Below are positions 18 through 10,738 of a stretch of DNA of 20,232 nt, piece after piece. The stretch is taken from positions 1-20,232 of the IMG/VR virus record IMGVR_UViG_3300025601_000164, one strand, 5' to 3'. Position numbers and translations under genes: made by a program. The stretch's first letter is position 1, and each line of letters opens with the position of its first letter. Below the pieces are notes generated by a model that was given only the letters and a program-made list of their open reading frames with translations, searched no databases and had not been told where the DNA came from. The DNA comes from a virus.

Positions 18-635
18 ATGAGCCAGCACCGCCCCGACGACGACGCCATGAATACTGAAACGATAATATCACCAAAGACTACCGCCAAAGCCGAAAGTGA
101 GTGCGGTGTTGGATCCGGCGCTTTGTTAGGCTTCCCGCCCGTTTTGGATGCGTGTTGTGGAAGTCGAATGTTTTGGTTTGACCGCAAAAACCCTGACGCA
201 CTCTACATGGATAAGCGCGAAGAAAAGTACGTCCTCTGTGACGGCCGCAATTTGGAAATATCTCCCGATGTCGTGGCTGACTTCACGAAGATGCCGTTTC
301 CGGATGAAACTTTCTATCTCGTCGTGTTTGACCCGCCGCACATGAATTCTCTCGGCGCGAATAGTTGGATCGCCAAGAAATACGGGCGGCTGCTCGGTGA
401 CTGGCACGATGAAATCCGGGAAGGCTTCAACGAATGCCTGCGCGTCCTCAAACCAAACGGAACGCTAATCTTCAAATGGAACACGACTGACGTGCCGCTA
501 AATGAAGTGCTGGCACTCGCGCCGCAACCTCCTCTTTTCGGACACACGACGGGACGCCAGGCGAAAACGCACTGGGTCACTTTTATGAAGCAGAACGATT
601 TAGCTCTGCCACAGACGGAGAGCCCAAGACTATGA
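18..635 (+). CDS. Class I SAM-dependent methyltransferase
   Basis: This 205-residue protein has a Rossmann-type methyltransferase pattern. Residues 42-48 read VLDACCG, a variant of the SAM-binding glycine motif I, and residues 102-108 read VVFDPPH, a motif IV of the D-P-P-Y/H type found in amino-methyltransferases acting on bases. A hydrophobic strand ending in GTLIFKWN follows. The size suits a stand-alone phage methyltransferase without a separate target-recognition domain. Start 18 is chosen because GAGGAG lies at 1-6 with suitable spacing; an in-frame ATG at 48 lacks such a site. The stop overlaps the next start as ATGA. Next to two other DNA-modification genes, a role in base methylation is inferred, but the substrate is not visible and RNA or protein cannot be excluded. 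The first 35 or so residues show no recognisable domain. Confidence 0.75.
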   Translation: MSQHRPDDDAMNTETIISPKTTAKAESECGVGSGALLGFPPVLDACCGSRMFWFDRKNPDALYMDKREEKYVLCDGRNLEISPDVVADFTKMPFPDETFYLVVFDPPHMNSLGANSWIAKKYGRLLGDWHDEIREGFNECLRVLKPNGTLIFKWNTTDVPLNEVLALAPQPPLFGHTTGRQAKTHWVTFMKQNDLALPQTESPRL

Positions 636-1354
636 ATACAAATCAAACTCCGCCGCCCTCGGGATTGGCATCAGTGCCTTGTTCTGTGTCTTCATTTTTA
701 TGCGTAGGTAGCTCAATGGAAGAGCTTCCCTTGTTCCAAAGGGAGGATGGCGGTTCGATTCCGACCTCTGCGCTCCAATTCAAAATCCGTCCGATTAAAA
801 ACGATACGGCAGAAAAGTGGGTGGTGAAATGGCACTACTCGCACCGAATTCCGGGAGGGAAAAATATCTGCTTTGGACTCTATGCGGATAACAGCCTCTA
901 TGCGGTGATAGTGTATGGAATCGGGGTGAACCCATATCAAGCAAAGTTCTTGGGTGTTGAGTGCGTGTTGGAAATCAAGCGCATGTGTAGGGCTGAACCA
1001 GCGCTGCCGTATCCGCTCTCACGTTTCATCGCACTCACGGCGAAAATGGCAGCGAAAGAATATCCTCACGATTGTTTAATAGCCTTTGCAGATCCAGAGC
1101 AAGGGCATGAGGGGACAGTCTACAAGGCGAGCGGCTTCAAAATGCACGGCATGACAAATGCCGAATGGCACTTGGAGGATGAGACTGGTGAAAAACGGCA
1201 TAGGCGACTGGACTACCATCACGCACGGAAAAATGGGCAAACTGTGGCTGAAAGCCGCGATCAAATGAATCTGAAACGAGTTAGGACTGCTCCTAAATAC
1301 AGATGGATCAGGATGAGAGAAAAAACCAACAAACACCGAAATCAATATGGCTAG
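632..1354 (+). CDS. Mom-like DNA base-modification protein (GNAT fold)
   Basis: From about residue 50 the 240-residue product resembles the Mom family, whose phage Mu member converts adenine to a carbamoylmethyl derivative that protects DNA from restriction. Visible support is the WHYSHRIP motif at 67-74, the segment VLEIKRMCR at 112-120, and the GNAT-like stretch FADPEQGHEGTVYKASGF at 152-169. The start is uncertain. ATG 632 overlaps the previous stop (ATGA) and has GGAG upstream, but the first 49 residues look non-domain-like and residues 24-49 are encoded by a tRNA-shaped sequence at 702-777. The only other ATG before the domain, at 716, lies inside that sequence, and no standard start follows it. 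The Mom-like assignment is fairly firm; the N-terminal extension is not. The flanking methyltransferases support a DNA-modification role. Confidence 0.75.
   Translation: MNTNQTPPPSGLASVPCSVSSFLCVGSSMEELPLFQREDGGSIPTSALQFKIRPIKNDTAEKWVVKWHYSHRIPGGKNICFGLYADNSLYAVIVYGIGVNPYQAKFLGVECVLEIKRMCRAEPALPYPLSRFIALTAKMAAKEYPHDCLIAFADPEQGHEGTVYKASGFKMHGMTNAEWHLEDETGEKRHRRLDYHHARKNGQTVAESRDQMNLKRVRTAPKYRWIRMREKTNKHRNQYG
702..777 (+). tRNA. tRNA-Gly(TCC)-like sequence inside the Mom-like ORF
   Basis: A complete cloverleaf can be drawn by hand. The acceptor stem 702-708/767-773 pairs at all seven positions with two G-T wobbles. The D-stem is GCTC/GAGC with GG in the loop. The anticodon stem TCCCT/AGGGA (727-731/740-744) is perfect, and the T-loop is TTCGATT. 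Discriminator T774 is followed by encoded CCA (775-777). The TCC at 735-737, after T734, would read glycine GGA codons. Three oddities stand out: the anticodon loop has 8 bases rather than 7, the T-stem needs one bulged base (A764), and the variable loop is 4 bases. It lies in frame within codons 24-49 of the Mom-like ORF. It may be a functional, frameshift-type or decaying tRNA; the tRNA origin is clear, function is not. Confidence 0.7.
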
Positions 1355-2423
1355 ACTGAGTAAACAATTTGAATCCGCGACCGGCGAATGGCCTACACCG
1401 GATAGCCTATGGAAGCCACTGGATGACGAGTTCGGCTTCACGCTGGACGTGGCCGCAAACTCCGCGAACGCCAAGTGTAAACGCTTCTTCGACCTTCAAT
1501 CTGATGGGCTGACCCAATCATGGGCAAAGGAAACCGTGTGGATGAATCCCCCCTACGGGAGAAATATGGTGGCATGGTTGAAAAAAGCCGAAGAGGAGAA
1601 AGCGAACGGGACAACCACGGTCGCTTTGATTCCAGCGCGAACCAATACAGGATGGTGGCATGACATTGTGATGTCGAATGAGGTCCGCTTCGTGAGAGGT
1701 CGTCCGAAATTTGGAAACGCCGATCAAGGATTACCGTGGCCTCTCGCGGTGATTATTTTCCGGGAGAACGCATTGCTCATGGACGCCGACCCTAAATCTC
1801 CGATTCAAGAAGGACGCTCCTCGGCGTTCCATGCAGCGCCTTGTTCTGCATTTCGGTGTATCGTGGCCGATCCGCCATGGCACTACGGGCGGAGTTGGGA
1901 CACCGGAAGCGAGAAGGCGCAATACAAAGGTTTCAACAACAAGGCAGTGCCGATGCCATACGATCAAATGAAGTTGCCCGAAATCAAGGCACTTCCCGTT
2001 GGGGAGCTTGCTGCGGATCAATGCGACCTCTACCTGTGGGCAACGCAGAAATATCTGCCGGATGCCTTCGATGTGCTCAAGGCGTGGGGCTTCCGCTACT
2101 GCCAGACGCTGACATGGTGCAAGGCACCGAGGGGAACCGGCCAAGGTGGACTCTACTGCCCGACGACTGAGTTCTTGATTCTGGGACGCCGTGGGAAAAT
2201 GCCCGCGAAAAAGCGAATAGATTCTACGTGGTGGCAGGTGAAGCGCCAGAAACGCCACAGCCAAAAGCCGGAGTTCTTCCATGACATGATCGAATCCCAA
2301 AGCGACGGCCCACGGTTGGAACTCTTCGCACGGAGGACTCGCCTCGGATGGTCAACGTGGGGAAACGAGGTCGCGTGCGACATCACCCTTTCTTCACATA
2401 ACAATAAATCTCTAATTTCATGA
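1347..2423 (+). CDS. Fusion of phage Dam-type and MT-A70-type adenine methyltransferases
   Basis: The 358-residue protein contains two methyltransferase domains. Residues about 12-143 match the phage N6-adenine methyltransferase (Dam, PF05869) pattern: EWPTPDSLW, DVAANSANAKC, the catalytic NPPY at 67-70, and ALIPARTNTGWW. Residues about 168-345 match the MT-A70 family (PF05063), with DPPW at 175-178, DLYLWATQKYLPDAF and a conserved tryptophan-rich C-terminal part. Both NPPY and DPPW are the expected catalytic tetrapeptides, so both domains may be active on adenine N6. These families usually occur as separate proteins. The start overlaps the Mom-like stop by 8 bases without a clear Shine-Dalgarno, suggesting translational coupling. 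The likely role is methylating phage DNA against host restriction; the recognition sites cannot be read from sequence. Confidence 0.85.
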   Translation: MARLSKQFESATGEWPTPDSLWKPLDDEFGFTLDVAANSANAKCKRFFDLQSDGLTQSWAKETVWMNPPYGRNMVAWLKKAEEEKANGTTTVALIPARTNTGWWHDIVMSNEVRFVRGRPKFGNADQGLPWPLAVIIFRENALLMDADPKSPIQEGRSSAFHAAPCSAFRCIVADPPWHYGRSWDTGSEKAQYKGFNNKAVPMPYDQMKLPEIKALPVGELAADQCDLYLWATQKYLPDAFDVLKAWGFRYCQTLTWCKAPRGTGQGGLYCPTTEFLILGRRGKMPAKKRIDSTWWQVKRQKRHSQKPEFFHDMIESQSDGPRLELFARRTRLGWSTWGNEVACDITLSSHNNKSLIS

Positions 2424-4861
2424 AAAACTCCATAATATCTCTGTTTTCCTCGGCACTTGCCAAGGAACCCGATCAAGCAATATCTATCTCTGACTTTCTG
2501 TCTGCCATTAAGGGCGGGCGCTGGGAACGTCAAATCACTGTCCTTCGTGACCATATCCGGCGAGGGGATCGTGTCCGCTATGACCACAAGAAACGGGATC
2601 TTCCCGCTGTGACCATCTCTTGCCATTGCCTTTCTCGCGAGATGGACCTTTCACCGGACGCGAAGTCCATCACTCACTCTGGCTTCCTCCAAGCTGATTT
2701 TGATTTGAAAGATAATCCAATCCTTGCGGAACCGGAATCGGTTACCAAGATGCGGGCGGACCTGCTTGAGGACACTCATGTTGCGGCTGTTTTTGTCGGA
2801 CCATCCGGCGAGGGCCTTAAGGCAGTGGTATCAATTGATACCGACCGCCACAAAGATTCATGGTTTGCGGCGGAGGCCCATTTTCGTGACGTTCACGGGA
2901 TCAAGCTGGACCGGGCCACCAAGGACCCGATGCGGCTTTGCTTTGTCTCGTTCGATCCTGAGTTGACCACTTCCGACGAATTCACCCCGCTCGCGGTGCC
3001 GGACAAGTTCCCAGAATCCCCAGCTTGGCGGCCACCGATTGAAACGACCGGCGCCGACATCGCGGAGATGCTCAAATTTTGCCCGCCACGGCCGGATTAT
3101 GACACATGGCTTCGCATCGCCTCGGCGGTGTGGTCGGTCCTTCCCATGGAGGATGGGGCCCGCCTGCTCGATCAATGGTCACCGGAAGAGAAGGATGGGG
3201 AATATGCCGGGAAGCACAAGGTCCGCCTGCAACAAATCACCATCGGAACGCTGTCCCACATTGCCAGCCTCCATGGATTTGACGCCAGGGCGGCTTGGCA
3301 ACGGCGGCGCTGGGCGGGCCGTATCCGTTTTGCCGACTCTGACCGTTCACCCGGACAGAGGGAAGATCCCGCGAAGGACACGGCGCCGGGACGGATTGCC
3401 ACGGAATTGACCCGAGAGCGGATCATGGAAGCCTTTCGCACCGGGCAGGCCGGGGACGCTCGCCTTTGGTGTGAGATGCGGAGGGGGCTCCGAGTCTGGA
3501 ATATCCATGCAAAAATGTGGATGATCTACGAGGATGGGCTTTGGACCAGGGACGCCGGACATTCCACGCCGTGGGACATTTCCGACACGCTTTGCCGAAT
3601 TTACGGTGGGCTCAAGGAATCTGTTCAAAAAGAAGTGGACGATGAACCCGCACCTGATCGGAAGAAAGACCCTCGGGAAAAGGAGATGGCGGCAATCATT
3701 GCCCGCATCTCTCAATTGCGGGAGTGGGCCTATGTCTCGGCGGTGGAAAAGTTTTGCCTACGGGAAATGTCCCTCCCGGCGACGGCATTTGATGCCAATA
3801 AGGAAATCCTTGTCCTTGAAAATGGCACTCTCGACTTCTCGGAGGGGATTTTTCGCGAACACCGTTCATCCGACAATGCCACGGTGCGGAGCCCGATTGA
3901 CTTTGACCCGGAAGCAGAGTGTCCATCGTGGGAGGCATTCCTTGATAGATTCATTCCAGACACAGAAACCCGGCTGTATATCGCTCGGGCGGTTGGGTAT
4001 TCGCTCACCGGTCGCACGGACTATGACGCGCTTTTCTTCACCTATGGGAAGGGGGCCAATGGCAAGAGCACGTTTCACGCTGTGATGAAGATTCTTTTGG
4101 GCGAACTCATGACATCGGTGCCGATTGCGGCACTCCTCGCGGCCAAGTCAGACAATAACTTCGATTACCACAAGGCATCCATGGAGGGAAAGCGGGTGGT
4201 GCTCACGGATGAGATCCCCGAAAATCGGCCACTGGCTGATAGCCAGGTGAAGGCAATCACAGGCGGCGACCTCATGAATGCCCGGAGGCCGTTCGAGTCG
4301 CCCTATACTTTCATGCCGACTCACAAGCTTTGGCTGATGGGGAACCACAAGCCAGAAATCAAGGGCACGGACGAGGGGATCTGGCGGCGGGTGCATCTCG
4401 TTCCGTTCTCGGTGCGGATTCCAGATGCCGAACGACGGCCACGGTCGGAGGTTGTCCGCGAGTTCCAGTCCGAAGCCTCGGGCATCCTTAATTGGGCCAT
4501 TCGGGGGTTGCTCGAAAGCCGGGATATTGGGTTGCGTCCACCGGCTCAGGTAACAGAGGCAACGGCAGAGTATCGGGACGAATCGGACCAGTTCGGCGCA
4601 TTCCTTACCGAATGTCTCGAAGAGGACGCAGGGGGAGAGTTAAGGGTTGGAAATATCTCGAAAATCTATGCCGTATGGTGTGAGCGAAACGGCGAGTATC
4701 CGCGCTACAAAGGCACTCGAAAGATCAAATCTATCCTTATTGATCGGGGGTTCGTCTCCAGAATCGGGCGCGGAAACCTTCCTGTGATTGAGGGATGGCG
4801 GCTCAAGGTTGATGAAGAATCTAACATTTTAGAGATTCATGGACAAAGATACCTTTCTTAG
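2420..4861 (+). CDS. P4-type primase-helicase with VirE/BT4734-like N-terminus
   Basis: This 813-residue replication protein appears to contain, in order: a BT4734/VirE-N-like domain (about 60-185, with acidic ADFDLKD at 92-98 and MRLCFVSFDP at 171-180); a PriCT_2-like domain (about 212-288); a D5_N-like region (about 340-510); and an SF3-type helicase. The helicase shows Walker A GKGANGKST at 543-551, Walker B VVLTDE at 593-598, a sensor-like GNHKP at 641-645 and RR at 656-657. The final 120 residues probably form the winged-helix DNA-binding end of this family. By family knowledge such proteins, like the phage P4 alpha protein, recognise an origin, unwind it and in many cases prime synthesis. 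The gene starts in an ATGA overlap, and its stop codon touches the first of the GTCACC repeats, which fits an initiator next to its own origin. Confidence 0.88.
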   Translation: MKNSIISLFSSALAKEPDQAISISDFLSAIKGGRWERQITVLRDHIRRGDRVRYDHKKRDLPAVTISCHCLSREMDLSPDAKSITHSGFLQADFDLKDNPILAEPESVTKMRADLLEDTHVAAVFVGPSGEGLKAVVSIDTDRHKDSWFAAEAHFRDVHGIKLDRATKDPMRLCFVSFDPELTTSDEFTPLAVPDKFPESPAWRPPIETTGADIAEMLKFCPPRPDYDTWLRIASAVWSVLPMEDGARLLDQWSPEEKDGEYAGKHKVRLQQITIGTLSHIASLHGFDARAAWQRRRWAGRIRFADSDRSPGQREDPAKDTAPGRIATELTRERIMEAFRTGQAGDARLWCEMRRGLRVWNIHAKMWMIYEDGLWTRDAGHSTPWDISDTLCRIYGGLKESVQKEVDDEPAPDRKKDPREKEMAAIIARISQLREWAYVSAVEKFCLREMSLPATAFDANKEILVLENGTLDFSEGIFREHRSSDNATVRSPIDFDPEAECPSWEAFLDRFIPDTETRLYIARAVGYSLTGRTDYDALFFTYGKGANGKSTFHAVMKILLGELMTSVPIAALLAAKSDNNFDYHKASMEGKRVVLTDEIPENRPLADSQVKAITGGDLMNARRPFESPYTFMPTHKLWLMGNHKPEIKGTDEGIWRRVHLVPFSVRIPDAERRPRSEVVREFQSEASGILNWAIRGLLESRDIGLRPPAQVTEATAEYRDESDQFGAFLTECLEEDAGGELRVGNISKIYAVWCERNGEYPRYKGTRKIKSILIDRGFVSRIGRGNLPVIEGWRLKVDEESNILEIHGQRYLS

Positions 4862-10294: not shown

Positions 10295-10738
10295 ATGAAA
10301 AACGAAATCACCATCGAAGGAACGGCCGTCTTGCGAGACGGGGAACCTGTAGGCGAACTCACTACGGAAGGAGACTTCAAGCCGATTGAGGGACTCCATC
10401 ACAAGACAGCGGAGAAGATCGCTAAGGAAATTGACATTTTGAAAGACCAGGGTGGACAAACGGCAAGTCACTCTGCTCATAACCAAGAGATCGCGGGTTC
10501 GATTCCCGCCACTGGCACCACTCACGACGAGGGGCTAGACAGGCTAGAGGTTCTATCCAAAAATCCCAAATTTAGAAGCGGGACCACTCCCATATCAGGC
10601 CCATTAGCAGCGCCACAGCAAGACCCCGCGCTAGGCGATAAGACCCGGACCTATGTGTCGTGGTATCGGCTCAATCACACGGCCAAGGCGTTTGATGCCA
10701 AGTATGGAAACCGCATCTTGGGAGGTGACGAGGAATGA
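10295..10738 (+). CDS. Phage protein upstream of scaffold, with an embedded tRNA-like stretch
   Basis: The 147-residue ORF has three parts. Residues 1-50 (MKNEITIEGTAVLRDGEPVGE...) look like a small beta/helical domain. Residues 51-76 are encoded by a tRNA-Met-shaped sequence and read NQEIAGSIPATGT near the end, a classic artefact-like translation of a tRNA T-arm. Residues about 95-147 contain DPALGDKTRTYVSWYRLNH and FDAKYGNRILG, which resembles a C-terminal motif of small proteins encoded just before scaffolds in other phages. No good start codon lies between the tRNA-like stretch and the C-terminal motif, so either the protein is read straight through or the gene is disrupted. It overlaps the scaffold start as ATGA. 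The function is unknown. Confidence 0.6.
   Translation: MKNEITIEGTAVLRDGEPVGELTTEGDFKPIEGLHHKTAEKIAKEIDILKDQGGQTASHSAHNQEIAGSIPATGTTHDEGLDRLEVLSKNPKFRSGTTPISGPLAAPQQDPALGDKTRTYVSWYRLNHTAKAFDAKYGNRILGGDEE
10446..10520 (+). tRNA. tRNA-Met(CAT)-like sequence, partly degenerate, inside an ORF
   Basis: The T-arm is perfect (GCGGG / TTCGATT / CCCGC, 10493-10509), the discriminator is A10517 and CCA is encoded at 10518-10520. The anticodon loop CTCATAA (10476-10482) reads CAT. Conserved positions T8, A14, G18, G19, A21 and T33 are all present. The acceptor stem pairs at five of seven positions (1-72 is A-C, 6-67 is G-A), the D-stem has three pairs and the anticodon stem three of five. The GGGTGGA start, the A11-T24 pair and an unpaired 1-72 recall bacterial initiator tRNA, but the three G-C pairs expected in an initiator anticodon stem are absent. 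It may be a decayed tRNA, an attachment-site remnant, or an unusual functional tRNA. Confidence 0.6.

Follow-up and report, generated by a model that had tools for sequence, protein, structure and literature searches.

A glycine tRNA element tied to phage mom genes as a candidate glycine donor for DNA modification

The virus record IMGVR_UViG_3300025601_000164 was analysed over a window of 20,232 bases, which is the whole stretch of DNA considered here. In this window, the open reading frame (ORF) of a Mom protein reads through a sequence shaped like a glycine transfer RNA (tRNA-Gly) with an encoded CCA end (Table 1). This tRNA-Gly-shaped sequence is real. ARAGORN called a tRNA of unassigned isotype with an 8-nucleotide (nt) anticodon loop at 701–773, and Rfam RF00005 matched 702–772 with 32.8 bits (gathering score, 29), placing the sequence, with its cloverleaf and CCA, in the Rfam tRNA family. 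Our own covariance model, built from 35 related elements including that of the window, scored 90.1 bits (E = 4e-21) at 702–777. All stems form, including seven of seven acceptor pairs, two of which are G·U. The anticodon loop at 732–739 is TGTTCCAA (8 nt); its ends, 732 and 739, covary in relatives as U-A or C-G, so the loop may close to six bases. The original prediction, which had described a tRNA-Gly shape with complete stems, an encoded CCA, an 8-base anticodon loop, and a bulged T-stem A, was borne out on each of these points. The minimum-free-energy fold of the 76 nt is the cloverleaf, with a z-score of −1.6, so folding energy alone is weak evidence for the element. When 241 nt around it were folded, stability was no greater than that of shuffled sequences and other folds competed with the cloverleaf. 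A promoter scan gave no signal above chance.

Table 1 Positions of the tRNA-Gly element, its parts, and the surrounding genes in the window.
Feature	Position	Strand	Basis
Mom-linked tRNA-Gly element, CCA encoded	702–777	+	ARAGORN, Rfam, covariance model of relatives, covariation, fold
Acceptor stem, 5′ strand GCGTAGG / partner TCTGCGC	702–708 / 767–773	+	Covarying pairs 4-69 and 5-68; G1-C72, C2-G71, G3-C70
D arm GCTC-AATGGAA-GAGC; stem 711–714/722–725	711–725	+	Two-sided changes at 4/4 pairs in relatives
Anticodon arm, stem TCCCT/AGGGA (727–731/740–744), C35 and C36 in loop	727–744	+	Fixed bases, covariation
T arm GGCGG-TTCGATT-CCGACC, stem 749–753/761–766, bulged A764	749–766	+	Rfam, relatives
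Discriminator U73 (774) and CCA end (775–777)	774–777	+	Kept in relatives
Mom ORF reading through the tRNA	632–1354	+	Pfam PF25680, 1.2e-34
Mom GNAT domain, residues 50–240; invariant H68, E114, R117, D154, G161, Y164	779–1351	+	Alignment, structure model
DNA methyltransferase gene, overlaps mom start	18–635	+	phrog_954, 3e-76
Dam + MT-A70 DNA methyltransferase gene	1347–2423	+	Pfam

The Pfam match of the Mom ORF starts at residue 50, directly after the CCA. The candidate start codons are ATG 632, which overlaps the stop codon of the upstream gene (ATGA), and ATG 716 within the tRNA; the first in-frame start 3′ of the tRNA, GTG 821, lies within the GNAT domain. As had been proposed, the tRNA and the ORF share bases. 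Selection acts on these nucleotides twice, once for the tRNA and once for the protein that they encode. We fetched 16 Mom relatives by protein similarity. The same element was found in 11 of them, with its CCA abutting the Mom domain, and the remaining five are without the element and have a Mom that begins at its own ATG or GTG. We also scanned a T-arm pattern against IMG/VR and examined 108 distinct matches, of which 103 were tRNA elements; the other five (L045, L047, L049, L057, and L079) were rejected as chance pattern matches with no tRNA fold. A Mom profile matched in 70 of the 80 loci L018–L097. The other ten were the five chance matches, L027 and L084, which run off their contigs (Mom is still seen in L027), L044 and L052, which show Mom-like sequence by eye, and L091. 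About 100 distinct elements are fused 5′ to Mom genes (PF25680). The virus contigs are fragments, and the counts given here and below are of related sequences, not of independent events. In L091 (ca. 4047–4235) and L105 (ca. 2495–2842, minus strand), the tRNA is intact but the Mom ORF that follows is cut to 29 or 49 residues, as though the tRNA had been left behind when mom was lost. L019 and L055, and probably L039, have two successive Mom-like ORFs; the tRNA element is fused to the first.

The phase in which the Mom frame crosses the tRNA is the same in nearly all fused cases, and the frame is usually open to an ATG or GTG ca. 10–14 nt 5′ of G1 or to an ATG in the D-loop. Among distinct fused elements, 74 of 79 are 76 + 3n nt long. 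The lengths of elements located downstream of mom, which need not be read through, spread over all three frame classes (37/28/40), and length change by multiples of three is confined to the fused class. In L013, a stop codon lies in the D-loop region and a TTG restart lies inside the tRNA, so that here the RNA outlives the frame.

Selection on the RNA was evaluated using 35 gap-free elements. In these, 97.6% of cells were paired, compared with 77.8% after shuffling and 44–50% after sliding, and covariation was 0.538, compared with 0.151 (standard deviation, 0.013) after shuffling and at most 0.112 after sliding. Two-sided changes occurred at twelve pairs; the five T-stem pairs were invariant, partly because the search pattern fixed those bases. 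In 25 disjoint pairs of related loci, the codon-position change rates were nearly flat in the element (0.088/0.128/0.138), compared with 0.165/0.104/0.430 for the Mom domain. Across 41 sequences, no change was seen at the fourfold sites of GGC, CCG, and ACC, which the search pattern partly fixed. The encoded CCA and the T-stem bulge are kept in the fused class. The peptide encoded by the anticodon stem varies freely, and the peptide as a whole is variable wherever the stems covary. Codon-position bias together with lost stem pairs in related phages had been named beforehand as the outcome that would speak against a tRNA; the opposite, compensated stems and near-flat rates, was found.

On the covariation, the codon-position rates, and the fourfold sites, we rejected a chance or coding-only origin. 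An old tRNA fragment retained solely for its Mom peptide would fit the kept frame and the motif GG(S/A)xPTS in the fused class; this is extremely unlikely and already contradicted by the flat codon-position rates, the compensatory stems, the disorder predicted for the peptide, and the occurrence of the same RNA at positions without read-through. In the AlphaFold model, the predicted local distance difference test score was below 50 for residues 12–33 and 35–45 and above 90 for most of residues 50–230, so that the N-terminal peptide encoded by the tRNA bases is predicted to be disordered. The suggestion that tRNA sequence was recruited for coding holds only if the coding is regarded as the passenger, the peptide being predicted to be disordered and variable where the stems covary. 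We also rejected an integration-site remnant, which is disfavoured by the full length of the element, its stems kept by compensation, and its place at mom.

tRNA-Gly genes were also found beside mom in other arrangements. Among GenBank phages, Psychrobacter phage Y8A has two tandem D-arm-less elements directly after mom. In Arthrobacter phage BarretLemon, the last 21 nt of mom overlap a tRNA-Gly(UCC) that is not annotated, and in Microbacterium phage Pickles13 a tRNA-Gly(CCC), here annotated, lies on the other strand just downstream of mom. We sampled IMG/VR with the Mom proteins of these three phages and scored tRNA-Gly by our own covariance model or ARAGORN. tRNA-Gly was present in 60 of 80 loci of BarretLemon-Mom relatives, 73 of 80 of Psychrobacter-Mom relatives, and 49 of 53 of Pickles13-Mom relatives; the samples are of distant Moms and overlap, and the first and third are related. 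It nearly always lay directly downstream of mom, on the opposite strand in 13 Psychrobacter-type cases, and many of the mom-linked tRNA-Gly had no D-arm. Over 1.8 Mb around mom, ARAGORN reported 65 tRNA-Gly, 44 isotype-less tRNAs with odd loops, and a single tRNA each for Ile and Gln. A tree of 115 Moms requires a minimum of 18 changes in tRNA presence, eight of them forced by branches with good support, and a minimum of five in tRNA strand. The tRNA lies upstream of mom without read-through in L113 and L127, after mom in L128 and L140, and apart from mom in L127 and L277. Hundreds of related phages keep a glycine tRNA beside mom, and tRNA-Gly is tied to mom upstream and fused in frame, downstream, and on either strand. 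Unusual tRNAs of this kind, with no D-arm or with odd loops, are missed or left unassigned by the Rfam tRNA model and ARAGORN.

Some sampled records showed further features. The minus strand of L128, the contig with a downstream tRNA-Gly element mentioned above, also carries type II hammerhead ribozymes at three places (2608–2675, 4089–4156, and 4480–4549), each scoring above the Rfam cutoff. Phage Y8A has a second Mom, annotated as methylcarbamoylase (OQ059336.1, 39393–40157; L142), far from the Mom preceding the tandem tRNA elements. In Acinetobacter phage AbTZA1 (L143), a tRNA-like element with CCA at 1454–1530 scored 24.5 bits with the Mom-tRNA model; it is unannotated and was not called by ARAGORN, and no mom is annotated nearby.

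The bacterial glycine identity set consists of G1-C72, C2-G71, G3-C70, U73, C35, and C36 (PMC9976931). The window element has the complete set. GCG/CGC, U73, and C35C36 are nearly invariant in the fused elements, and downstream elements have GCG in 101 of 105 and U73 in 104 of 105 cases, while the wobble base 34 varies among relatives. Fixed identity bases with a variable base 34 are the pattern expected from selection for charging, not for decoding. A tRNA-Gly for translation, which supplies codons or replaces a tRNA cut by host anticodon nucleases and whose linkage to mom reflects chance or common late expression, would fit some downstream elements with 7-nt loops, canonical arms, and UCC, CCC, or ACC anticodons. 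We regard it as quite unlikely, since 8-nt loops, the T-stem bulge (77 of 105 downstream elements), and D-arm loss are unsuited to decoding, and since the linkage concerns glycine only, occurs at mom only, and is recurrent on the Mom tree. The window element itself was rejected as an elongator tRNA on the basis of its 8-nt loop and bulged A764, both of which are conserved in the fused class. In +1 frameshift suppressor tRNA-Gly of the SufD type, the anticodon loop carries an extra base. The original prediction drew this comparison, which is not supported: here the extra base lies 5′ in the loop, no four-base anticodon is conserved, since base 34 varies and fixed bases are limited to C35 and C36, loop sizes differ (some are 7 nt), many relatives lack the D-arm, and the tRNA tracks mom.

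A quite unlikely alternative is that the element is a cis-acting tRNA mimic, a structured leader of mom messenger RNA (mRNA) that controls Mom synthesis, for example by binding Mom itself or by sensing glycine supply, and not a free tRNA. The fused-class start codons, 10–14 nt 5′ of the tRNA or inside it, would agree with this, as would the control of Mu mom by an RNA hairpin bound by Com (PMC6483171). The downstream and opposite-strand positions in many groups make a Mu-like translational leader unlikely, and the retention of glycine identity, U73, and the encoded CCA and the separation of the tRNA from mom in L127 and L277 also argue against it.

All 30 aligned homologous proteins matched Pfam Mom PF25680. 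The window protein and Mom of the Mu-like phage D108 share the invariant H, E, R, D, G, and Y positions, and the best match among solved structures was Mu Mom (PDB 8bv8), which has the same family and fold. D108 differs in that it has no linked tRNA and its mom is controlled by Com and Dam. The acyl-CoA motif A of GNATs is defined as [QR]xxGx[GA]. This motif was present in one of 34 Moms and missing in the other 33. GNAT-fold aminoacyl-tRNA transferases provide a precedent for the proposed use of Gly-tRNA (PMC12945691). The product of Mu Mom is given as alpha-N-(purin-6-yl)glycinamide (Swinton 1983, as cited in PMC3874153). The C2H3NO (57 Da) contributed by a glycyl residue matches the formula added in the Mu product, so N6-glycylation followed by an intramolecular shift would give it; the tRNA is taken as the probable glycine donor.

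It is quite likely that this tRNA-Gly gene is reserved for Mom and that its Gly-tRNA is the glycine donor of Mom, where we infer both the charging and the donor role. Host glycyl-tRNA synthetase would charge the element, and the odd T stem, the anticodon loop, and the often missing D-arm or G18G19 may keep the tRNA from EF-Tu and the ribosome; the donor tRNA is probably kept out of translation. The GNAT-fold Mom would then take the glycyl group from Gly-tRNA and place it on adenine N6 in phage DNA, and N6-glycyl-adenine could rearrange to alpha-N-(purin-6-yl)glycinamide through an intramolecular N-to-N (Smiles-type) shift. A transcript of the fused class could act either as mom mRNA, with its start within the tRNA or just 5′ of it, or as a precursor of the tRNA, because RNase P cleavage at G1 would remove the upstream start; RNase P cleavage versus translation from the upstream start may set the balance of donor and enzyme. 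Phages without such a tRNA, such as Mu, would use host Gly-tRNA. An aminoacyl-tRNA-dependent DNA modification, in which a private, translation-excluded Gly-tRNA is the donor and in which, in the large fused class, the nucleotides of the tRNA also code for the beginning of the enzyme that uses it, is likely.

Several points weigh against this donor role. Past Mu Mom, the Foldseek neighbours of the structure model were acyl-CoA GNATs, and its 50 best hits included no Fem-type enzyme; a review assigns or assumes glycyl-CoA-like acyl donors for Mom (PMC7824862). The N-to-N rearrangement is a chemical inference and unproven. In a few downstream elements (L284 and L267), the anticodon loop seems to lack its CC through loss. 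Furthermore, of 47 records without an adjacent element, many of them fragments, 42 also lack one at any other place, among them those of Mu-like D108 and ICP1. Since many mom genes stand in records with no such tRNA anywhere, Mom does not need a private one.

A close parallel to the proposed donor is found in the staphylococcal cell wall, where separate non-proteinogenic tRNA-Gly isoacceptors feed glycine to the GNAT-fold transferases FemXAB and not to the ribosome (PMC4052509, PMC9976931). The S. aureus tRNA-Gly reserved for FemXAB has an altered T stem and has lost G18G19 (PMC9976931, PMC4052509), and the T stem and the D-loop G18G19 are also the parts changed in mom-linked elements. The FemXAB system differs in that its acceptor is peptidoglycan (the pentaglycine bridge) and FemX has two GNAT domains, and these sources describe no tRNA-enzyme gene fusion, 8-nt anticodon loop, conserved T-stem bulge, or D-arm loss. 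GNAT toxins of the TacT/AtaT type also act on Gly-tRNA with a GNAT fold, and TacT recognizes it via U73 and G71 (PMC9976931); they acetylate the charged amino acid and stop translation, do not modify DNA, and do not belong to the Mom family. Both U73 and G71 are conserved in mom-linked elements, as would be expected if the phage tRNA-Gly were a decoy that soaks up such host toxins beside mom as a neighbour in an anti-defence cluster. This possibility is very unlikely, since it leaves the constant Mom partner and the in-frame fusion unexplained.

In the open-licence literature, we found no paper linking Mom with glycyl-tRNA or aminoacyl-tRNA; a report elsewhere is possible. The donor of the glycinamide-like group of Mom is not evidently settled, and the linkage of tRNA-Gly to mom in distant phages points to a concrete candidate. 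If the Gly-tRNA is indeed this donor, DNA would join peptidoglycan, lipids, proteins, and antibiotics as an acceptor of tRNA-borne amino acids.

The window contains a second tRNA at 10446–10520, called by ARAGORN as tRNA-Met with a CAT anticodon and scoring 41.5 bits with Rfam, which likewise lies within an ORF (10295–10738). Neither Pfam nor PHROG gave a match for this ORF, and ten related records contain no homologue of it. At 18–2423, mom stands in a run of DNA-modification genes consisting of the PHROG-954 methyltransferase, Mom, and the Dam + MT-A70 fusion. In L141, L146, L150, and L162, the gene directly upstream of mom, or the next one beyond it, codes for a protein with a ParB-like (or ParB/sulfiredoxin) domain. 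Such a neighbour was found in Psychrobacter, Microbacterium, Arthrobacter, and Enterococcus phages and may be part of the modification system.
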